Shown: piece by piece, positions 2,052 through 10,229 of the stretch | Position numbering within the stretch: the stretch's first letter is position 1 | Layout: each line of letters starts with the position of its first letter | Assembly: GCA_021839785.1 (NCBI GenBank) | Contig: JAKCAB010000717.1 | Location: 1 to 10,727, forward strand | Length of the DNA stretch: 10,727 bases | Source: a bacterium | GTDB lineage: Bacteria; Verrucomicrobiota; Verrucomicrobiae; Limisphaerales; J093 | Direction of reading: 5' to 3' | The notes under the pieces: model-generated | What the model saw: the letters and a program-made list of their open reading frames with translations, nothing else | Database searches by the model: none | What the model was told of the DNA's origin: nothing | Position numbers and translations under genes: made by a program

Positions 2052-2741
2052 ATGGCCAAAGAAATCGACCGCAGGACCCGGATCCTCGAAGCCGCCGAGC
2101 GCGCCTTTGCCGAATACGGCTTTGCCGGGGCGTCGCTGCGGCACATCGTGCTCGAGGCGCAGGTCAACCTCGCCACGGTCTATTACTACTTCGAGTCCAA
2201 GGAAGGCCTGATGGCGGCGGTCTTCGAGCGCCGGTTCGGCCCGCTCCGCCAGGAACACCTGGATTTGCTCGCCCGCCGGAAACGCGAGGCCAAAGGCGGC
2301 GTGCTGTCGGTGGAGCAAATCCTCGAAACCATGCTGGTCCCGCCGCTGCGATTGGCCGGGACCGCCTCGGCCAAAAACCGCGCCAACATGCGTTTGATCG
2401 GCCGCATGGTGACCGATCCCAACCCGCAGACGCAGGAGCTGCTGCGCCGCCAGCACGAGCGCGTCCGGGCAGCGTTCCTGGAGGAACTTCACCGCTGCTT
2501 GCCCGACCTGCCCTGGCCCGATCTGCAGTGGCGCTTCGAGTTTTTCTGGGGCGCGGTGGCGTTCATTTTGTGCAACCCCGGCAAGATCGAGAAAGCCACC
2601 AAAGGCGTCTGCAATCCGGCCGACCCGCGGCTGGTGCTGGCCCAAATGAAGGCGTGCTTCGCCGCCGGCTTCCGCGCTCCGGCGGCGGCCGTGAACGAGG
2701 CCTCAACGCTGCTGTCCGCCAACGAGACCGTCGCCGCCTGA
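2052..2741 (+). CDS. TetR/AcrR-family transcriptional regulator
   Basis: This 229-residue protein has a standard TetR N-terminal DNA-binding domain. RTRILEAAERAFAEYGFAGASLRHIV (8-33) is helix 1 plus the start of the helix-turn-helix, and VNLATVYYYFESKEGLM (38-54) is the recognition helix and helix 4 with the conserved 'YYYF-x-S-K-E-x-L' pattern. The C-terminal part (about 60-215) is all-helical and is the presumed inducer pocket and dimer interface; it is too variable to name a ligand. The ATG at 2052 lies just after the inverted repeat at 2012-2038. The adaptor gene begins 64 bases after its stop and in the same direction. Local repressors of RND pumps in this family (AcrR, MexZ, TtgR and similar) respond to toxic pump substrates, so this is most likely the local repressor of the downstream pump and of itself. 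Confidence 0.92.
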   Translation: MAKEIDRRTRILEAAERAFAEYGFAGASLRHIVLEAQVNLATVYYYFESKEGLMAAVFERRFGPLRQEHLDLLARRKREAKGGVLSVEQILETMLVPPLRLAGTASAKNRANMRLIGRMVTDPNPQTQELLRRQHERVRAAFLEELHRCLPDLPWPDLQWRFEFFWGAVAFILCNPGKIEKATKGVCNPADPRLVLAQMKACFAAGFRAPAAAVNEASTLLSANETVAA

Positions 2742-2805: not shown

Positions 2806-3978
2806 ATGCAAAAAACGTCAGTCTCGTCTTTGCTCGCCGTGCTGGCCACTGTCGGTCTCACGGCCTGTCATCGATCGCAGCCGCCCCCGGCCATGCCACC
2901 GCCGAAAGTGACGACCGCGCTGCCGCAGACCGCCACGGTCACGAACTGGGACGAATACCCCGGCCACCTCGAGGCGGTGGAGTCGGTTGAAGTCCGCCCA
3001 CGCGTGTCCGGTTACATCGACTCGATCCACTTCCAGGATGGCGCGGAGGTGAAGGCGGGCGATCTGCTGTTCGTCATCGACCCGCGCCCGTTTCAGGCCG
3101 AATTGGACCGTGCCAGCGCCGAGCGGCAGGCCGCCGAGACGCGGCTCGATCTGGCTAAAAACGATCTGGAGCGCGCCGAGACTCTCCGCGGCACGCGCGC
3201 GATCTCGGTCGAGGAACTCGACAGTCGCAACAAGACCTTCCGCGAGGCCCAGGCCGCGTTGACCGCCGCCAAGGCCGCGGAAGCGGTCGCGAAACTCAAC
3301 CTGGACTACACCCGCGTCACCGCGCCCATCGCTGGCCGCATCGGGCGCCGTCTTGTGACCGCGGGCAACCTCGTCCAGGGCGGCGGCATGATGCCCGGCA
3401 CCTTGCTCGCCACCTTGGTGAGCCTGGATCCGATTTACTGTTACTTCGATGCGGACGAAGCCGCCTTCCTGCGTTATCGCCGGAATGGAGAAGCCGCCGA
3501 GGCCGCCGGAACCAAGGCGAAGAAACTCGACTGCGAACTGGCCCTGGTGGGCGAGACCGGCTTTCCGCACCGCGGCCAGGTGGACTTCTTCGACAACGCC
3601 GTGAATCCCCAGACCGGCACGATCCGGATGCGCGGCGTGTTTGCGAACACCGACCGCGCGCTGGTGCCGGGGATGTTTGCCACCGTGCGCGTCCCCGCCG
3701 GCCCACCCGTTACCGGTCTGCTCGTGCCGGCGGTGGCGATCGGTTCGGATCAAGGCCACAAGTTCGTTTTGACGGTCAACGACGGGGGAATCGTCGAAGC
3801 CAAGCCCGTCCAGGTGGGGCGCCAGGAAGGCGCCATGCGCCTGGTCACCGCCGGCTTGACCGGCAAGGAAGCGGTGATCGTCAACGGGCTGATGATGGCG
3901 CGGCCAGGCGGCAAGGTGCAGGTCGTGAACGAAGCCGCGCCGCCCGCGGCGGAGGCGGCGGCAACGGCGGCAAAATGA
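2806..3978 (+). CDS. RND efflux periplasmic adaptor subunit (membrane fusion protein), lipoprotein
   Basis: This is an adaptor of the AcrA/MexA/MdtA type that bridges an RND pump and an outer-membrane channel. From ATG 2806 it is 390 residues. The N-terminus is a lipoprotein signal: K3, a hydrophobic run, then the lipobox LTAC with Cys21 as lipid attachment site. A proline-rich linker (26-33) follows. Next are the first half of the lipoyl-like domain (VRPRVSGYIDSIHFQDGAEV, 63-82), a charged alanine/leucine/glutamate coiled-coil hairpin (about 95-165), the second lipoyl half (DYTRVTAPIAGRIG, 167-180), the beta-barrel (about 208-300, with GTIRMRG at 271-277) and a membrane-proximal domain (about 300-375). 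The reading frame stays open upstream to a TTG at 2764, but that would put 14 polar residues before the signal, so 2806 is preferred. The residue after Cys21 is His, so there is no Asp+2 inner-membrane retention signal. The pump gene starts 31 bases after its stop. Confidence 0.94.
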   Translation: MQKTSVSSLLAVLATVGLTACHRSQPPPAMPPPKVTTALPQTATVTNWDEYPGHLEAVESVEVRPRVSGYIDSIHFQDGAEVKAGDLLFVIDPRPFQAELDRASAERQAAETRLDLAKNDLERAETLRGTRAISVEELDSRNKTFREAQAALTAAKAAEAVAKLNLDYTRVTAPIAGRIGRRLVTAGNLVQGGGMMPGTLLATLVSLDPIYCYFDADEAAFLRYRRNGEAAEAAGTKAKKLDCELALVGETGFPHRGQVDFFDNAVNPQTGTIRMRGVFANTDRALVPGMFATVRVPAGPPVTGLLVPAVAIGSDQGHKFVLTVNDGGIVEAKPVQVGRQEGAMRLVTAGLTGKEAVIVNGLMMARPGGKVQVVNEAAPPAAEAAATAAK

Positions 3979-4009: not shown

Positions 4010-7000
4010 GTGAAATTCTCCCATTTCTTCATCCGCCGCCCGATTTTCGCCGCGGTGCTGGCGATCATCACCGTGGTGCTGGGCCTGGCGGCACTGCTCA
4101 CCCTGCCCATCGCCCAATACCCGGAAGTCACGCCACCGACCGTGTTCGTGATGGCGAATTACCCCGGCGCGAGCGCCGAGACGGTGGCCTCGACCGTGGC
4201 CACGCCGTTGGAGCAGGAAATCAACGGCGTGGAGAACATGCTGTACATGTCCTCGTCGTGCAGCAGCGACGGCCAGTTGCGCATCGCCATCACCTTTCAA
4301 ACCGGGACGGACCTGGACATGGCGCAGGTGCAGGTGCAAAACCGCGTTTCGACCGCGCTGCCGCGGTTGCCCGAGGAAGTGCGCCGGCTGGGCGTCATCA
4401 CCATGAAGCGCTCGCCCAGCATCACGGTGCTGGTCCAACTGGTCTCCCCGACCGGCAAGTACGACGACCTTTACATGGGCAACTATGCCTTCCTACACGT
4501 GAAGGACCGGCTGGCCCGCCTGCCGGGCGTGGGCGACGTGCGCATTTTCGGCGTGAGCGAATACGCGATGCGGATCTGGATCGACCCCAACCAGGCGTCG
4601 GCCCGCGACCTGACCGCGTCGGACATCGTCGCCGCCATCCGCGAGCAAAACGTGCAGGTGGCCGCCGGCGTGTTTGGCCAGCCGCCGCAACCGCCGGGGA
4701 ACTTGTTCCAGCTCACGGCCCAGACCCAGGGTCGCTTCTCCACGCCAGAAGAATTCGGCGCCATCATCCTCAAGACCGGCGATTACGGTCAGGTCACCCG
4801 CTTGCGCGACGTCGCCCGCATCGAGTTGGGCGCCAACGACTATAACATCCGCGATTACCTCGACGGCCACCCCTCCGTGGTCATGGGCATTTTCCAGTTG
4901 CCCGGCTCGAACGCCATCGCCACGCGCGACGTGGTGGAAAAGGCGATGCAGGAAATGTCGAAAGACTTCCCGCCCGGCCTGGAATACCGCACCGAGTTCG
5001 ACACCACGATCTTCATCCGCGAGTCGATCCACGAGGTCGTGAAAACGCTCCTCGAAGCGATGGTCCTGGTCGTGCTCGTGGTCGTGCTTTTCCTGCAAAA
5101 CTGGCGGGCGTCGATCATCCCCTTGCTGGCCGTGCCGGTGTCGCTGATCGGCACGTTCGCGGTGATGGCCTTGCTGGGCTTTTCGCTAAACAACCTGTCG
5201 ATGTTCGGCCTCGTGCTGGCCATCGGCATCGTCGTGGACGACGCCATCGTGGTGGTGGAAAACGTGGAGCGCAACATCGCCCTCGGCCTGTCGCCGGTCG
5301 CGGCCACCCAAAAGGCGATGGAGGAAGTGAGCGGCGCGGTGATCGCCATCGCGCTGGTGCTCGCCGCCGTGTTCATTCCCACCGCGTTTCTGAGCGGCCT
5401 GACCGGCGCGTTCTACCGGCAGTTCGCGCTGACCATTGCGGTCTCGACGCTGATCTCGGCGTTCAACTCGCTGACGCTCAGCCCGGCGCTTTCGGCGCTG
5501 TTGCTCCAGCCGCACCACGAAAAGAAGGACTTCATCGGCCGGCTGATTCACTACTCGGTGGGCTGGATTTTCACCGGCTTCAATCGTGTGTTCGAAGGCA
5601 GCCGGTCGGCGTACGCCAAGGTCTTGGGCCGGCTTTTGCGGCACTGCGGTTTGGGGCTGGTTTTGTACGCGGGCTTGATCACACTCACCTGGTTCAGCTT
5701 CCGCCAGGTGCCGATCGGTTTCGTGCCCCCGCAGGACAAAGGATACTTGATCGCCTACGTCCAGTTGCCTGACGGCGCGTCGCTCGAACGCACCAAAGCC
5801 GTCAGCGACCGGATGCAGCAGATCATGCTGAACACGCCCGGCATCGACCACGTAATCCAGATCGTCGGGCTGTCGTTCGTCACTCTGGGCAACCAGGCCA
5901 ACGCCGCCAGCTTCTTCGTCACGCTCAAGCCGTTCGACGAACGCGTCAAAGCCGGCCTCTCTGCCAACGCGGTCGTGGCCGATCTGCGCCGGCGCATGGC
6001 TGGCATTCAAGACGGCTTCATCGGCGTGTTCGGGCCGCCGCCCGTGGACGGCTTGGGATTGGTCGGCGGGTTCAAACTCCAGGTCCAGGATCGCAACCAG
6101 CTAGGCTTCCCGGCGCTCCAGGCCGCGACCCTGCAACTCATGGCCGCCGCCAACCAGGACAAGCGCATTGCCGGCGCGCTCACCACCTTTCGCGCCCGCG
6201 TGCCGCAGGTTTATCTCGAAGTGGACCGCGAGAAGGCCAAGACCATGAAGGTGCCGTTGAATTCGGTCTGGGACACACTCCAGATCTATCTCGGCTCGCT
6301 GTACGTGAATGACTTCAACGCCTTCGGCCGGCCGTACCGCGTCACCGCCCAGGCGGACGCGCCCTTCCGCGCCAAGGCGAGCGACGTGGCCAATCTCAAG
6401 ACCCGCAACGCGGCCGGCGAAATGGTGCCGCTGGGCACGATCATGAACGTCCGGGATGTCTCCGCGCCCGTGTCGGTGGCGCATTACAACATGTATCCCA
6501 CGGCAGAAATCACCGGCGCCACCGCGCCGGGCGTGAGCACCGGCGACGCCATCCGCATCATGGACGACTTGGCCGCGCGCGTGTTGCCGCCCGGCATGGG
6601 CATCGAGTGGACCGAAATCAGCCTGCTCGAACTGCTCGCCGGCAACACCGCCGTGTTCATTTTTCCGTTCTGCGTGTTGATGGTGTTCCTCGTGCTGGCC
6701 GCGCAATACGAGAGTTGGTCGTTGCCGCTGGCCATCATCCTCATCGTGCCGCTCTGTCTGTTGTTCGCGATCCTCGGCACCTGGGCGCGCGGATTCGACA
6801 ACAACCTGTTCACCCAGATCGGCCTCGTCGCCTTGATGGGCTTGGCCTGCAAGAACGCGATCCTGATCGTGGAGTTCGCCAAGCAGATTCAGGACACCGG
6901 CAAGCCGCGGGTCGAGGCCGCCATCGAGGCCAGCCGCCTGCGCCTGCGGCCGATCTTGATGACCTCGTTCGCGTTCGCCTTCGGCGTGCTGCCGATGATG

Positions 7001-8662
7001 CTCTCGAAAGGCGCCGGCGCCGAGATGCGGCAGGCCATCGGCACCGCGGTGTTTTGGGGCATGTTGGGCGTGACGTTCTTCGGCATCTTCCTGACGCCGG
7101 TGTTTTACGTCGTGATCCGCAGTGTGCTCGAAAGGTGGAAGAAGCCCGCGGCCAACTCCGCATTGCCGGGCGCGCAGATCGCCGGGGCGACGACCCTGGT
7201 GCTCCTGGCGGGCCTGGGCTCCACGCTGTTTTTGAGCGGCTGCGCGGTGGGACCAAACTATCACCCGCCGCAAACCAAGGTGGATTCCGCCTTTGCCAAC
7301 GCCGGTCAAACCAACCTGACCACGGCGGCGACCGAGACGAACTGGTGGCACGGCTTCAACGACGAAACGCTCGACCGCCTCGTCACCCGCGCCATTGTCA
7401 CCAACCAGGATTTGCGCATTGCCACGGCACGCGTCCGCGAAGCGCGGGCGCTCCGCACTGGCACCGTGTTGCAGGCGTTCCCGATCGTCCAAGCCAGCGC
7501 CGGTTACAACAAAAGCGTGCTGAGCGAAGACGCCACGCATGGATTGCCGCGGGACCAGCGCGAAAACGAGTTGTATAACGCCGGCTTTGACGCCACCTGG
7601 GAGATCGACGTTTTCGGCCGCGTCCGCCGCTCGATCGAGGCCAGCACCGCGGACCTGGTCGCGATGGAGGAATACCGCCGCGACGTGCTGGTGAGTCTGA
7701 TTGCCGAGATTGCCCGGAACTACGTCGAATTGCGCGGCGGCCAGAACGAACTCGAGGTTGCCCGCCAAAACGCGGAGAACCAACGTGAGACGCTCGACAT
7801 CACGGAGGCCAAGCTCAAGGCTGGACGCGCCACCGACCTCGACGTTGCCCGCGCGCGTTCGCAATTGAACGCAACGCTGGCGCTGATCCCGCCGCTGGAG
7901 GCGAACGTCAAACGCACCATTTACCGTTTGGGCGTGCTCATCGGCGAACCGCCCACCACGCTCGACGCGGAATTGTCCGCCGCCGCGCCAATACCGGCCG
8001 CGCCGGCGGTGGTGGCGATTGGCGATCCGGCGTCGTTGCTCCGCCGCCGGCCGGACATTCGCACCGCCGAGCGCGCCCTCGCGGCAGCCACGGCTCGCAT
8101 CGGCGTGGAAACGGCCGACCTGTTCCCGCGAGTCACCTTCAATGGCCGGGTGGCGTTTGAAGCCAGCGAAATCTCCGGTTTCGGTGGCGGCTCGGACACC
8201 TACTCGTTTGGACCGCGCATTTCCTGGGCCGCGCTCGACCTCGGCCGCGTGCGCGCCCGCATCCAGGCCGCAAACGCCCGCGCCGACGCCCAGCTCGCCG
8301 CTTACGAAAAAACGGTGCTGACGGCGCTCGAAGAGACCGAAGGCGCGCTGGTCGATTACGGCCGCGCGCAAGCCCGGCGGGACTACCTCCTCGCGTCGGC
8401 GCAAGCCGCGGACCAGGCCGTGGCGCTCGCCCGCCAGCGTTACGAAAGCGGCATCGACAATTTCCTCACCGTGCTCGATGCCCAGCGCACGCAGTTGTCG
8501 GTGCAGGAACAACTGGCCTTGAGCCAGACCCGCGCCGCCACCGCGTTGGTGGCCGTGTACAAGGCGCTGGGCGGCGGTTGGGAAATCGAGCAAGCGTCCA
8601 CGGCACCCAAGTCAAACGAGCCCGCCAAAACCACTGCCCCTGCCCCGCTCGCTCAACGCTGA
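4010..8662 (+). CDS. RND efflux pump (HAE1 type) fused in frame to a NodT-type outer-membrane channel lipoprotein
   Basis: This is a single 1550-codon frame, against about 1030-1060 residues for an RND permease and about 470 for a NodT channel. Residues 1-1045 are a complete AcrB-like pump: TM1 after MKFSHFFIRRPIF, periplasmic porter domains, and TM4 motif VVDDAIVVVENVERN with Asp410/Asp411. Lys948 (LACKNAILIVEF) and Arg978/Thr985 (RLRPILMTS) complete the proton relay equivalent to AcrB D407, D408, K940, R971 and T978. TM12 ends near VFYVVIRSV (1031-1039). After the basic linker ERWKK comes a hydrophobic stretch (about 1057-1075) ending in lipobox LSGC, Cys1078. Residues 1078-1550 are a complete channel: AVGPNY after the Cys, WEIDVFGR (1197-1204), GRATDLDV (about 1272-1279), LLRRRPDIR (1343-1351) and GIDNFLTVLDAQRTQL (1481-1496). 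These are the two OEP repeats that trimerise into the outer-membrane barrel and tunnel. Start is GTG 4010, in the standard RND N-terminal context. With the adaptor it forms a full envelope drug-efflux system driven by proton import. The substrate is unknown. Confidence 0.93.
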   Translation: MKFSHFFIRRPIFAAVLAIITVVLGLAALLTLPIAQYPEVTPPTVFVMANYPGASAETVASTVATPLEQEINGVENMLYMSSSCSSDGQLRIAITFQTGTDLDMAQVQVQNRVSTALPRLPEEVRRLGVITMKRSPSITVLVQLVSPTGKYDDLYMGNYAFLHVKDRLARLPGVGDVRIFGVSEYAMRIWIDPNQASARDLTASDIVAAIREQNVQVAAGVFGQPPQPPGNLFQLTAQTQGRFSTPEEFGAIILKTGDYGQVTRLRDVARIELGANDYNIRDYLDGHPSVVMGIFQLPGSNAIATRDVVEKAMQEMSKDFPPGLEYRTEFDTTIFIRESIHEVVKTLLEAMVLVVLVVVLFLQNWRASIIPLLAVPVSLIGTFAVMALLGFSLNNLSMFGLVLAIGIVVDDAIVVVENVERNIALGLSPVAATQKAMEEVSGAVIAIALVLAAVFIPTAFLSGLTGAFYRQFALTIAVSTLISAFNSLTLSPALSALLLQPHHEKKDFIGRLIHYSVGWIFTGFNRVFEGSRSAYAKVLGRLLRHCGLGLVLYAGLITLTWFSFRQVPIGFVPPQDKGYLIAYVQLPDGASLERTKAVSDRMQQIMLNTPGIDHVIQIVGLSFVTLGNQANAASFFVTLKPFDERVKAGLSANAVVADLRRRMAGIQDGFIGVFGPPPVDGLGLVGGFKLQVQDRNQLGFPALQAATLQLMAAANQDKRIAGALTTFRARVPQVYLEVDREKAKTMKVPLNSVWDTLQIYLGSLYVNDFNAFGRPYRVTAQADAPFRAKASDVANLKTRNAAGEMVPLGTIMNVRDVSAPVSVAHYNMYPTAEITGATAPGVSTGDAIRIMDDLAARVLPPGMGIEWTEISLLELLAGNTAVFIFPFCVLMVFLVLAAQYESWSLPLAIILIVPLCLLFAILGTWARGFDNNLFTQIGLVALMGLACKNAILIVEFAKQIQDTGKPRVEAAIEASRLRLRPILMTSFAFAFGVLPMMLSKGAGAEMRQAIGTAVFWGMLGVTFFGIFLTPVFYVVIRSVLERWKKPAANSALPGAQIAGATTLVLLAGLGSTLFLSGCAVGPNYHPPQTKVDSAFANAGQTNLTTAATETNWWHGFNDETLDRLVTRAIVTNQDLRIATARVREARALRTGTVLQAFPIVQASAGYNKSVLSEDATHGLPRDQRENELYNAGFDATWEIDVFGRVRRSIEASTADLVAMEEYRRDVLVSLIAEIARNYVELRGGQNELEVARQNAENQRETLDITEAKLKAGRATDLDVARARSQLNATLALIPPLEANVKRTIYRLGVLIGEPPTTLDAELSAAAPIPAAPAVVAIGDPASLLRRRPDIRTAERALAAATARIGVETADLFPRVTFNGRVAFEASEISGFGGGSDTYSFGPRISWAALDLGRVRARIQAANARADAQLAAYEKTVLTALEETEGALVDYGRAQARRDYLLASAQAADQAVALARQRYESGIDNFLTVLDAQRTQLSVQEQLALSQTRAATALVAVYKALGGGWEIEQASTAPKSNEPAKTTAPAPLAQR
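7124..7243 (+). other. Internal lipoprotein-signal segment at the pump/channel junction
   Basis: These codons (residues 1039-1078 of the fusion) run from a GTG at 7124 through the basic cluster ERWKK and a neutral linker to a hydrophobic stretch closing with LSGC (Cys codon 7241-7243). This reproduces the n-region, h-region and lipobox of a lipoprotein signal. An RND pump leaves its C-terminus in the cytoplasm, so the segment would insert N-in and present the lipobox to the periplasm. Lipidation at Cys1078 and cleavage before it by signal peptidase II are therefore topologically possible. The +2 residue is Ala, compatible with sorting to the outer membrane. GTG 7124 could alternatively act as an internal start, but no Shine-Dalgarno precedes it. 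Processing is inferred; the motif is seen. Confidence 0.7.
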
Positions 8663-8689
8663 ATCGGCTCACTCTACCGGTAATGGAGC

Positions 8690-8706
8690 GCGACCGTCCC
8701 GGTCGC
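8690..8706. repeat. GC-rich hairpin 1 in the spacer after the pump gene
   Basis: GCGACCG (8690-8696) and CGGTCGC (8700-8706) are exact reverse complements with a 3-base loop. The element starts 28 bases after the pump/channel stop codon. No T-run follows it, so it is not a canonical intrinsic terminator, though it could stabilise the 3' end of the efflux mRNA. Together with the next hairpin it resembles the short palindromic units found dispersed in many bacterial genomes; that part is inference. Confidence 0.55.
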
Positions 8707-8708
8707 TG

Positions 8709-8729
8709 CCACCGGCGTCCCTCCGGTGG
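8709..8729. repeat. GC-rich hairpin 2 in the spacer after the pump gene
   Basis: CCACCGG (8709-8715) and CCGGTGG (8723-8729) are exact reverse complements separated by 7 bases. It sits only 2 bases after hairpin 1, giving two tandem stem-loops. Again there is no following T-run. The rest of the spacer up to about 8916 shows no further clear site on the + strand. The minus strand is the open stretch described separately. Confidence 0.5.
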
Positions 8730-8916
8730 ACCCGGTGCATACCCAGGCCGGATTTTCAGCGACCAAGTGCCACTGTGCCAACGCCGGAAGCGTGTACGTC
8801 GCTTTGAGGTTGCCACAAATTGGGCACCGCGCATAAACGGCGTTGTGTCCAACACCGCAACGAATGCGCCATTGGTCCGAGTCTGCCTGGTGCGCTCACA
8901 TCTGGATGCGCTCCCC

Positions 8917-9426
8917 GTGTTTGTGCTGCCTGCCGGGTTTGAGATTCGGCTGTACCGGCCCGGCGACCGCGACCGCTGGGTTGAAATCGTCAGTGCCGCG
9001 GACTCTTTCCAGACGATCTCCGCCGCGACACACGAAGCGGCTTTTGGCCACGGCGCACAAGCACTCGCCGAACGTCAGTTTTTCCTCGCTGCGCCCGACG
9101 GACAACTCGTCGGCACGGCTACGGTGTGGCGCGGCGAAAGCGGGCGCTGGCAGGGCTGGGGGCGCGTGCATTGGCTGGCGATCCTGCCCGCCTGGCAAGG
9201 CCGCGGACTCGGCAAAGTCTTGCTTTCGGCCACGCTCCAGCGCCTGCGCGAACTTGGCCACACACGCGCCTACCTGACCACCGAAACCGTCCGCCTGGCC
9301 GCGATCCGGCTTTATCTGCGGTCTGGCTTCACACCCGACTTTGCCACCGCCGCCGACCAAGCCGCGTGGCGCGACTTGCGGAGCCGCGGCGTTCCGGTTC
9401 AAATCCCCGCCGAACAAACAACCTAA
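8917..9426 (+). CDS. GNAT-family N-acetyltransferase
   Basis: From GTG 8917 the protein is 169 residues, the normal size of a single-domain GNAT. Family signs are the N-terminal strand FEIRLYRPGDRDRWVEI (8-24), the acetyl-CoA pyrophosphate loop QGRGLG (94-99) at the end of strand 4 (WLAILPAW, 86-93), and motif B AIRLYLRSGF (129-138). Such enzymes transfer acetyl from acetyl-CoA to an amine on a small molecule or protein in the cytoplasm; the acceptor is not predictable. The start is uncertain. The frame is open far upstream, even into the pump gene, but the upstream part (RDRPGRCHRRPSG and similar) is the spacer and not protein-like. GTG 8890 and GTG 8923 are alternatives to 8917, and none has a Shine-Dalgarno. 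It stops 5 bases before the next gene, suggesting co-transcription. Confidence 0.8.
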   Translation: MFVLPAGFEIRLYRPGDRDRWVEIVSAADSFQTISAATHEAAFGHGAQALAERQFFLAAPDGQLVGTATVWRGESGRWQGWGRVHWLAILPAWQGRGLGKVLLSATLQRLRELGHTRAYLTTETVRLAAIRLYLRSGFTPDFATAADQAAWRDLRSRGVPVQIPAEQTT

Positions 9427-9431
9427 CCAAC

Positions 9432-10229
9432 ATGAAGGACCTTTCCGGCCTCCGCATCACGTACCTCGGCGACTGGGTGTTTTACACCGGCCCGAGTTTC
9501 ATCGAGAGCCCGTTCGAGAACATGGCCAAGGACTGCTCGCTGCATTTCCTCGGCAAGCCAGTCACCCAGGCGCTCGAAGCGGCCGGCGCCCGCGTGGAGG
9601 CGCGCAGCAACTGGGACCTCTACCACCAGTCGCCGACCGACTTCGAACGCATGGTCAACGACAGCGACGCGTTGATCGTGAGCGACGTCGAGGCGCGCTG
9701 CTTTCATCTCAGCCCGCAGTTCTTCGACCGCAGCCTTTATGGCAAACAGATCGTGACCTTCCCGGACCGGCTCAAATTGCTCACCCGCGCGATCGAGGCG
9801 GGCAAAGGATTGATTTACATGGGCGGCTGGCTGGGCTTTTCGGGCTACATGGAAAAAGGCGGCTGGCGACGCTGCCCGATTGCCGATTGGCTCCCGTTCA
9901 CTTGCCTGGCCGGCGACGACCTCATGGAAAGCTCGGAAGGTTTCGGCATCGACGTGGCCGATCCCGCGCACCCAATTCTCGAAGGTCTGCCGGTCGAAAC
10001 GATCCCGCCCATGTTGGGCTACAACGAATTTGTGGCGAAGCCGGATTTGCGCGTGGTCTGGCGCGTGCGCGAAACGGGTCACCCCTTGCTGGGCACCTGC
10101 TACAAAGGCCACGGCCGGATGGTGGTCTATGGCTCCGATCCAGTCCCGCACTGGGGCCTCAACTTCATGCTTTGGGAAGGCTACGCGGCCTTCTGGCAAA
10201 ACCTGGCCCACTGGGCCGCGAGCCGGTGA
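9432..10229 (+). CDS. GATase1-like protein (PF07090-type putative glutamine amidotransferase)
   Basis: This 265-residue protein has the class I glutamine-amidotransferase-like (flavodoxin-like) layout: strand LRITYLGD (7-14), 'SDALIVSDVEA' (78-88), and the elbow-like turn GLIYMGGWLGFSGY (126-139). It continues with ADPAHPILEGLP (176-187) and a C-terminal MVVYGSDPVPHWG (230-242). The AHPILEGLP and D-P-x-P-H-W-G elements and the overall order fit the family once called DUF1355 and typified by Salmonella STM3548. No Cys sits at the elbow where true amidotransferases keep their nucleophile (GGWLG here), so enzymatic amide transfer is doubtful and the role is unknown. There is no signal peptide, so it is cytoplasmic. 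ATG 9432 lies 5 bases after the acetyltransferase stop. The next gene encodes a ThuA domain, which has the same fold superfamily, hinting at a functional pair in carbohydrate use. Confidence 0.8.
   Translation: MKDLSGLRITYLGDWVFYTGPSFIESPFENMAKDCSLHFLGKPVTQALEAAGARVEARSNWDLYHQSPTDFERMVNDSDALIVSDVEARCFHLSPQFFDRSLYGKQIVTFPDRLKLLTRAIEAGKGLIYMGGWLGFSGYMEKGGWRRCPIADWLPFTCLAGDDLMESSEGFGIDVADPAHPILEGLPVETIPPMLGYNEFVAKPDLRVVWRVRETGHPLLGTCYKGHGRMVVYGSDPVPHWGLNFMLWEGYAAFWQNLAHWAASR

Follow-up and report, generated by a model that had tools for sequence, protein, structure and literature searches.

A single gene in the window (the whole stretch of 10,727 nucleotides that was analysed) encodes an RND efflux pump and an outer-membrane channel in one uninterrupted frame. 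The fusion is real and conserved and is not an assembly error. The two halves are joined by a hydrophobic segment that ends in a conserved lipobox, and judging from the sequences we consider it quite probable that the product is a polyprotein, co-translated at a ratio of 1:1 and cut by LspA at Cys1078, after which pump and channel would be separate proteins. An earlier note on this DNA had interpreted the gene as a pump and a channel working as one polypeptide across the periplasm. This interpretation was half right: the fusion stands, and the covalent trans-envelope machine is not supported by the junction, which combines a linker with a hydrophobic segment and a canonical lipobox (LSGC).

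The fused gene and its operon

The fused gene (4010..8662, forward strand, stop codon included) has a GTG start and runs for 1550 codons with no internal stop, from the RND N-terminus through the channel. Its RND pump half (4010..7129, residues 1-1040) is matched over the full length of the Pfam model ACR_tran (residues 3-1037, profile positions 1-1021 of 1021) and scores above the cut-offs of RND_permease_1 (NCBIfam: NF000282, 1404 bits, cut-off 1250) and TIGR00915 (1187 bits, cut-off 940). The residues D410, D411, K948, R978 and T985, which the earlier note had named, are all found in this half; we take them to form the proton relay, as do the Asp-Asp pair of TM4, the Lys of TM10 and the Arg and Thr of TM11 in AcrB. 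With these residues and a full-length profile match over the cut-off, the pump half qualifies as a HAE1 RND permease, and the solved structures nearest to it are RND efflux pumps.

After the pump half and TM12 the chain has a basic end (ERWKK), and then a 17-residue linker, variable among relatives (7130..7195, residues 1041-1062 for both together). Then come the hydrophobic segment of the internal signal peptide (7196..7240, residues 1063-1077), which lies inside the 13th hydrophobic segment of the chain, and the lipobox L-S-G-C (7232..7243, residues 1075-1078). Lipidation is predicted at Cys1078 (codon 7241-7243), with a cut by SPase II immediately before it. The predicted mature NodT/OprN-type outer-membrane factor (OMF) spans 7241..8659 (residues 1078-1550). 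The NodT-type part, complete, occupies residues 1072-1523. The outer_NodT model (NCBIfam: TIGR01845) scores 342.8 bits (cut-off 210) over profile positions 4-460 of 460, and the Pfam OEP model matches two stretches. With both OEP repeats and the lipobox directly before Cys1 of the predicted mature chain, this half has the sequence features of a NodT/OprN OMF lipoprotein. Its nearest solved structure is OprN, both by sequence (3.7e-102) and by fold (Foldseek). For the OMF half we obtained an AlphaFold model of middling quality (mean pLDDT 72.9, TM about 0.5 to OprN), which was used solely as a fold check. Both halves are thus complete, as the earlier note had suggested.

Upstream of the fusion, on the same strand, lies the gene of a MexE/OqxA-like RND periplasmic adaptor (2806..3978, TIGR01730: 271.5 bits, cut-off 94.9). 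Its listed open reading frame opens at a TTG at 2764, and the ATG at 2806 gives a lipoprotein-type N-terminus (MQKTSVSSLLAVLATVGLTAC, ...VGLTAC), which makes 2806 the likelier start. The N-terminus of the adaptor counterpart at another fused locus, L001 (MQKSSVSSLLAVLAAVGLTAC), matches that of the window, and we take the adaptor for a probable lipoprotein with its start at 2806. Neither the best-scoring adaptor model, RND-peri-MexE (351.9 bits, cut-off 714), nor the OqxA model (301.7 bits, cut-off 835) reaches its cut-off, indicating that the adaptor is a relative of those named systems and not identical to them. A TetR-family regulator (TetR_N and TetR_C_30 domains; 2052..2741, forward strand) is encoded upstream of the operon. 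A related TetR gene is found upstream in 12 of the 13 fused loci with upstream DNA; it is absent in L004, and locus L014 is cut.

By its sequence, the operon appears to be a MexEF-OprN-type system with the pump and channel genes in one frame. MexEF-OprN of Pseudomonas and OqxAB are the nearest known systems, and the order adaptor-pump-channel, with the genes side by side, is shared with them. The best model for the pump is RND_permease_1, followed by OqxB, whose cut-off it does not reach; the adaptor scores best against the MexE model, and among solved structures the OMF is nearest to OprN. In MexEF-OprN pump and channel are separate genes, whereas here they form a single frame with a TetR-type regulator upstream. 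The efflux machine is therefore encoded by only two structural genes, adaptor and fusion, in agreement with the earlier note.

Further genes in the window code for a prokaryotic ketohexokinase-like sugar kinase (193-1320), a peptide deformylase (1349-1927), a GATase1-like protein (9126-10229) and a GNAT acetyltransferase. The open reading frame of the latter (8578-9426) is listed as opening within the 3' end of the fusion. As the acetyltransferase match covers residues 164-251, the true start of this frame probably lies after 8662.

A signal peptide at the junction

The first reading of the DNA had missed the signal peptide at the junction (7120-7250), where a cationic stretch and a linker precede a hydrophobic segment and then the lipobox. 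The end of TM12 (TPVFYVVIRSVLERWKK) is followed by 17 variable residues, the hydrophobic stretch and LFLSGC-AVGPNY. We examined the conservation of this region in two sets of fused proteins. Set 1 comprises the window protein and the 120 listed matches of a search with the channel half (121 sequences). Set 2 is drawn from a second fused family and comprises its 120 listed proteins.

None of the 121 sequences of set 1 lacks the Cys, and position -1 is Gly in 119 of them and Ala in two. This count rests on an anchor that does not require the Cys, as the zero entropy at the Cys is built in by the anchor of the entropy calculation. The linker columns have entropies of 2.5-3.3 bits (-36 to -21), and the Leu core (-14 to -12) is conserved with 1.1-1.3 bits. 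Set 2 has linker entropies of 2.3-3.5 bits (-31 to -17), again with a conserved hydrophobic core, and its lipobox is mostly F-G-G-C. The internal Cys is present in all 120 set 2 proteins, in 111 by script and in nine by reading the aligned rows: the script anchored 117 proteins, six of which had no Cys within the positions scanned, and these six and the three unanchored proteins were read by eye. As a control we searched for lipobox-like motifs after other hydrophobic segments (before residue 900, in proteins of 1400 aa or more), and only 1 of 1044 such segments in set 1 had one (set 2: 7 of 1113). Loci differ in whether the Cys is encoded by TGC or TGT, so it is the amino acid and not the codon that is conserved.

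Cys1078 aligns with residue 1 of the solved mature chains of OprN, OprM, OprJ, CusC, MtrE and CmeC, and 9 of 15 structure matches begin exactly at 21->1. The conserved Cys, the rarity of the motif elsewhere and the alignment to mature residue 1 together argue that the segment at the junction is a type II signal peptide belonging to the channel itself, in which the basic C-terminal tail of the pump appears to replace the n-region. The conservation of the Cys is in part due to common ancestry with stand-alone OMFs.

Asn at position -2 of a lipobox is unusual for lipoproteins. It is found in 55 of the 121 set 1 sequences; the window has Ser. None of ten candidate stand-alone lipoproteins from 19 related loci has Asn at -2, and several of these candidates resemble adaptors. 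LspA (Pfam: PF01252) was matched in 15 of the 16 fusion-bearing genomes searched; the genome of locus L011 (G005) gave no LspA match, and its assembly may be incomplete. The LspA match in the genome of L001 (G001:C20:16967-17392) lies within an open frame of 559 aa, and that in genome G596 within one of 333 aa. The long frame exceeds a normal LspA and may be just open sequence or another fusion.

Recurrence of pump-channel fusions

The earlier note had proposed a database search for single proteins that span RND and OEP. Our search with the channel half found 358 proteins at E <= 1e-10 among 7993 scored candidates, with a length filter that lets only proteins of about 850 aa or more through, so that these matches have the size of pump plus channel. 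Among the 120 listed matches, 110 are 1518-1551 aa long and ten are shorter (929-1403 aa), eight of which sit on contigs under 7 kb. A protein from another assembly (P0002) also has 1550 aa and is identical to the window protein at 1533 of 1550 residues. On a further contig, locus L001 is fused too, with 98% identity to the window in the RND half and 90% in the OMF half. In GTDB genomes 52 loci were returned, of which 14 (L001-L011, L014, L015 and L034) are fused, based on stop-to-stop frames that contain both halves; L014 and L034 end at the limits of the available DNA. The fusion is thus kept in several genomes. The nearest relatives are fused and less close ones have overlapping or adjacent genes, so the pattern that the note had named as speaking against a fusion, with all close relatives having two separate genes, was not observed.

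The source names of the listed set 1 matches are mostly Verrucomicrobiota, with one Candidatus Acidoferrum, and most fused GTDB loci bear the label Verrucomicrobia or just 'bacterium', L011 that of Lentisphaerae. In both sets the source annotation mostly follows the pump half ('multidrug efflux pump', 'efflux RND transporter permease subunit'). Some members carry the JGI annotation 'HAE1 family protein/NodT family OMF', which names both halves, so the architecture has already been annotated. In the literature searched, which was of limited coverage, we found no description of natural RND-OMF fusions, and passages of a review on efflux (PMC8277102) make no mention of them.

Among 387 genomes searched in the phylum group, 48 contain a match at E <= 1e-80, with 58 matches in total. 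Thirteen of these matches lie in frames of 1497-1668 aa, all 13 without a stop between the pump end and the channel; L063 and L076 are also fused, as short pieces. Eleven of the 13 long-frame fusions form a second family with another RND lineage, whose named members come from Kiritimatiellales, Pontiellaceae, Tichowtungia and Desulfobacter. These HAE1-NodT fusions, for example of Tichowtungia aerotolerans and Desulfobacter postgatei, have the same architecture as the window protein, including the internal lipobox Cys, and differ in branching elsewhere in the RND tree, where unfused relatives fall both within the group and next to it. The two halves of L011 (L011:2785-7482) appear from their sequences to have different histories: its channel is 62% identical to that of the window, its pump, from another RND lineage, only 42%. 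An unfused relative in genome G322 has a pump 64% identical to that of L011 over 289 residues and a channel that groups with the L011 channel.

For the Desulfobacterota group we searched 198 genomes, scoring the top two candidates of each (E <= 1e-200), and obtained seven full-length rows. L136 and L137 are fused and have lipoboxes. The other five were rejected as fusions, as a stop lies between the halves: L133, L134, L138 and L139 have two frames, and in L135 the pump frame ends. The 'open_frame_aa' value from the whole-genome searches can read through such a stop. Two more loci of this group, L140 (G691:C4) and L141 (G654:C20), have RND matches in frames of 1481 and 1309 aa.

Another separate RND-OMF fusion is L091 (G007:C34:167500-178000), from a Pedosphaera-labelled MAG. 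It has the hydrophobic segment without a Cys, indicating that a fused gene can persist without a lipobox. Its sequence has VTA|G or SQA|W, either of which may be an SPase I site.

Fusions of another kind, CusA/CzcA-TolC, are frequent in Bacteroidota. They are mostly about 1440-1520 aa long and likewise have the RND part and then OEP/TolC in a single frame, and their junction also contains a signal peptide; an example from Parabacteroides distasonis carries the name CusA/CzcA family transporter only. They differ from the window protein in their heavy-metal-type RND, which is about 24% identical to the window RND half (L095), and in having an SPase I-type site before Gln where the window has a lipobox. 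A protein search gave 3224 matches at E <= 1e-5 among 7989 scored candidates, and near-identical proteins of the Parabacteroides type make up most of the 120 listed. At the genome level we found 97 matches, spread over 72 of 198 genomes. A hand count places 83 of these matches in frames of 1330-1523 aa and the other 14 in short ones of 411-450 aa. Of the 30 best-scoring loci, 27 are fused, with 23 distinct junctions. All 27 fused loci have small-x-small|Gln within about 30 residues after a hydrophobic segment, compared with 5 of 82 other segments. This matches the Q-rule for signal peptidase I, with a cut before Gln in Bacteroidota, as it is given in passages of PMC5837995.

An RND tree with 41 fused and 24 unfused rows (65 in total) requires at least seven changes between fused and unfused over starred branches, which are to be taken with some caution as all trees are 'quick' IQ-TREE trees with SH-aLRT only. 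Fusions arose or were lost repeatedly, gains and losses being indistinguishable on this tree. The partial L012 was left out of it and L143 has stray N-terminal letters. An earlier RND tree used pieces over 600 aa only and omitted L095, the loci from L103 on and 16 named loci, which are duplicates, short pieces or distant paralogues. In the OMF comparison 17 unfused rows were omitted, and some rows are one locus fetched twice.

Unfused relatives point to a possible origin of the fusion. Of the 17 unfused loci examined, 15 have their nearest OMF start codon inside the pump end or no more than about 10 bases away from it; in L017 and L028 the arrangement of pump and channel is less clear or more distant. 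At L133, L134, L138 and L139 of the Desulfobacterota group, pump and channel are in one frame with a single stop codon between them. Loss of such a stop would probably give the observed architecture, signal peptide included.

One chain or two proteins

An assembly or sequencing error, in which a stop or frameshift between two genes was missed, has practically no chance of accounting for the fusion. It is true that the genes of unfused relatives overlap or sit one in-frame stop apart, so that a single error could mimic a fusion. Independent assemblies carry the same fusion, however: P0002 has the same 1550-aa frame, L001 is fused, and 110 of the 120 listed proteins are 1518-1551 aa long. A channel made separately by internal initiation, with the fused product as a minor or accidental read-through, is improbable. 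Within the fused frame of P0121, a Met has been retained along with an ordinary and complete signal peptide (MKIIAPFLLLLFVSGC), and the OMF start at or near the pump end in most unfused loci would also fit this explanation. We scanned for start codons upstream of the Cys in the window and 30 fused entries (31 entries, 27 distinct loci; L091 has no anchor). No position of an in-frame ATG, GTG or TTG is conserved among the 31 entries, and a Shine-Dalgarno-like motif is found in only two, L006 and L014, 15 and 8 codons before the Cys. The window has five such codons in the 44 codons scanned, none of them with a Shine-Dalgarno-like motif, and L007 and L011 have none at all across the 42 codons preceding the Cys, so that at these two loci translation continuing from the pump seems to be the only way to make the signal.

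The chain might also stay uncut, in which case TM13 would remain in the inner membrane, still connected to the channel, and pump and channel would act as a single covalent trimer across the periplasm. The continuous frame and the completeness of both halves agree with this, as does the persistence of L091 without a lipobox Cys, and we regard it as unlikely, if slightly less so than internal initiation. In OprM-like proteins a lipid on mature residue 1 anchors the chain to the outer membrane. The hydrophobic segment stops at just this residue of the OMF, leaving no linker and no spare chain to span the distance from the inner to the outer membrane. An uncut chain also offers no reason for the Cys in 241 of 241 listed sequences of the two fused sets, nor for the SPase I-type site before Gln at 27 of 27 Bacteroidota junctions.

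The favoured reading is thus a single precursor in which the cytoplasmic C-terminus of the HAE1 pump is continuous with the type II signal of its own OMF. The 12 RND helices would insert first. The hydrophobic segment of the signal would then insert as the 13th helix, and the channel would be sent via Sec into the periplasm. Lgt would put diacylglycerol on Cys1078, and LspA would subsequently cut before it. The pump would keep the spent signal as its 13th helix and stay in the inner membrane, and the channel would be released as a normal lipoprotein to the outer membrane, where it would trimerise and rejoin the pump through the separate adaptor, as in MexEF-OprN. In RND efflux a pump trimer stands on a channel trimer, which fits the 1:1 synthesis from the fusion; the fixed 1:1 ratio proposed in the earlier note is supported at the level of translation.

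A comparable precursor is FbcH of Bradyrhizobium, the cytochrome b/c1 precursor, in which a polytopic inner-membrane protein and an exported protein are joined by an internal signal and separated by a signal-peptidase cut. The window protein likewise has a cleavable-type signal peptide between two complete proteins. FbcH belongs to a respiratory complex and is cut by SPase I, whereas the window protein is an efflux pump with a lipobox, and its second product would be destined for the outer membrane.

We moderately favour the more general view that the pump-channel fusions of diderm bacteria are a recurrent class of polyproteins, in which the RND pump would serve as insertion anchor for its own channel. 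The two would be separated by the housekeeping signal peptidase, LspA in Verrucomicrobiota, Kiritimatiellales and Desulfobacter or SPase I in Bacteroidota, with the spent signal staying behind as a 13th helix. The cut site would be selected because a single chain sets the stoichiometry and the site of delivery while function needs two proteins.

Should the chain be cut at the internal signal, simple tests would be possible in cultured species (Tichowtungia, Desulfobacter), and such sequences should not be modelled as one rigid machine. The fusion would be a natural device for 1:1 expression and could account for 'missing' outer-membrane factors beside some pumps. At the protein level, cutting would leave intact the textbook rule that pump and channel are separate, and the genes would follow a polyprotein logic that is rarely noted in bacteria.
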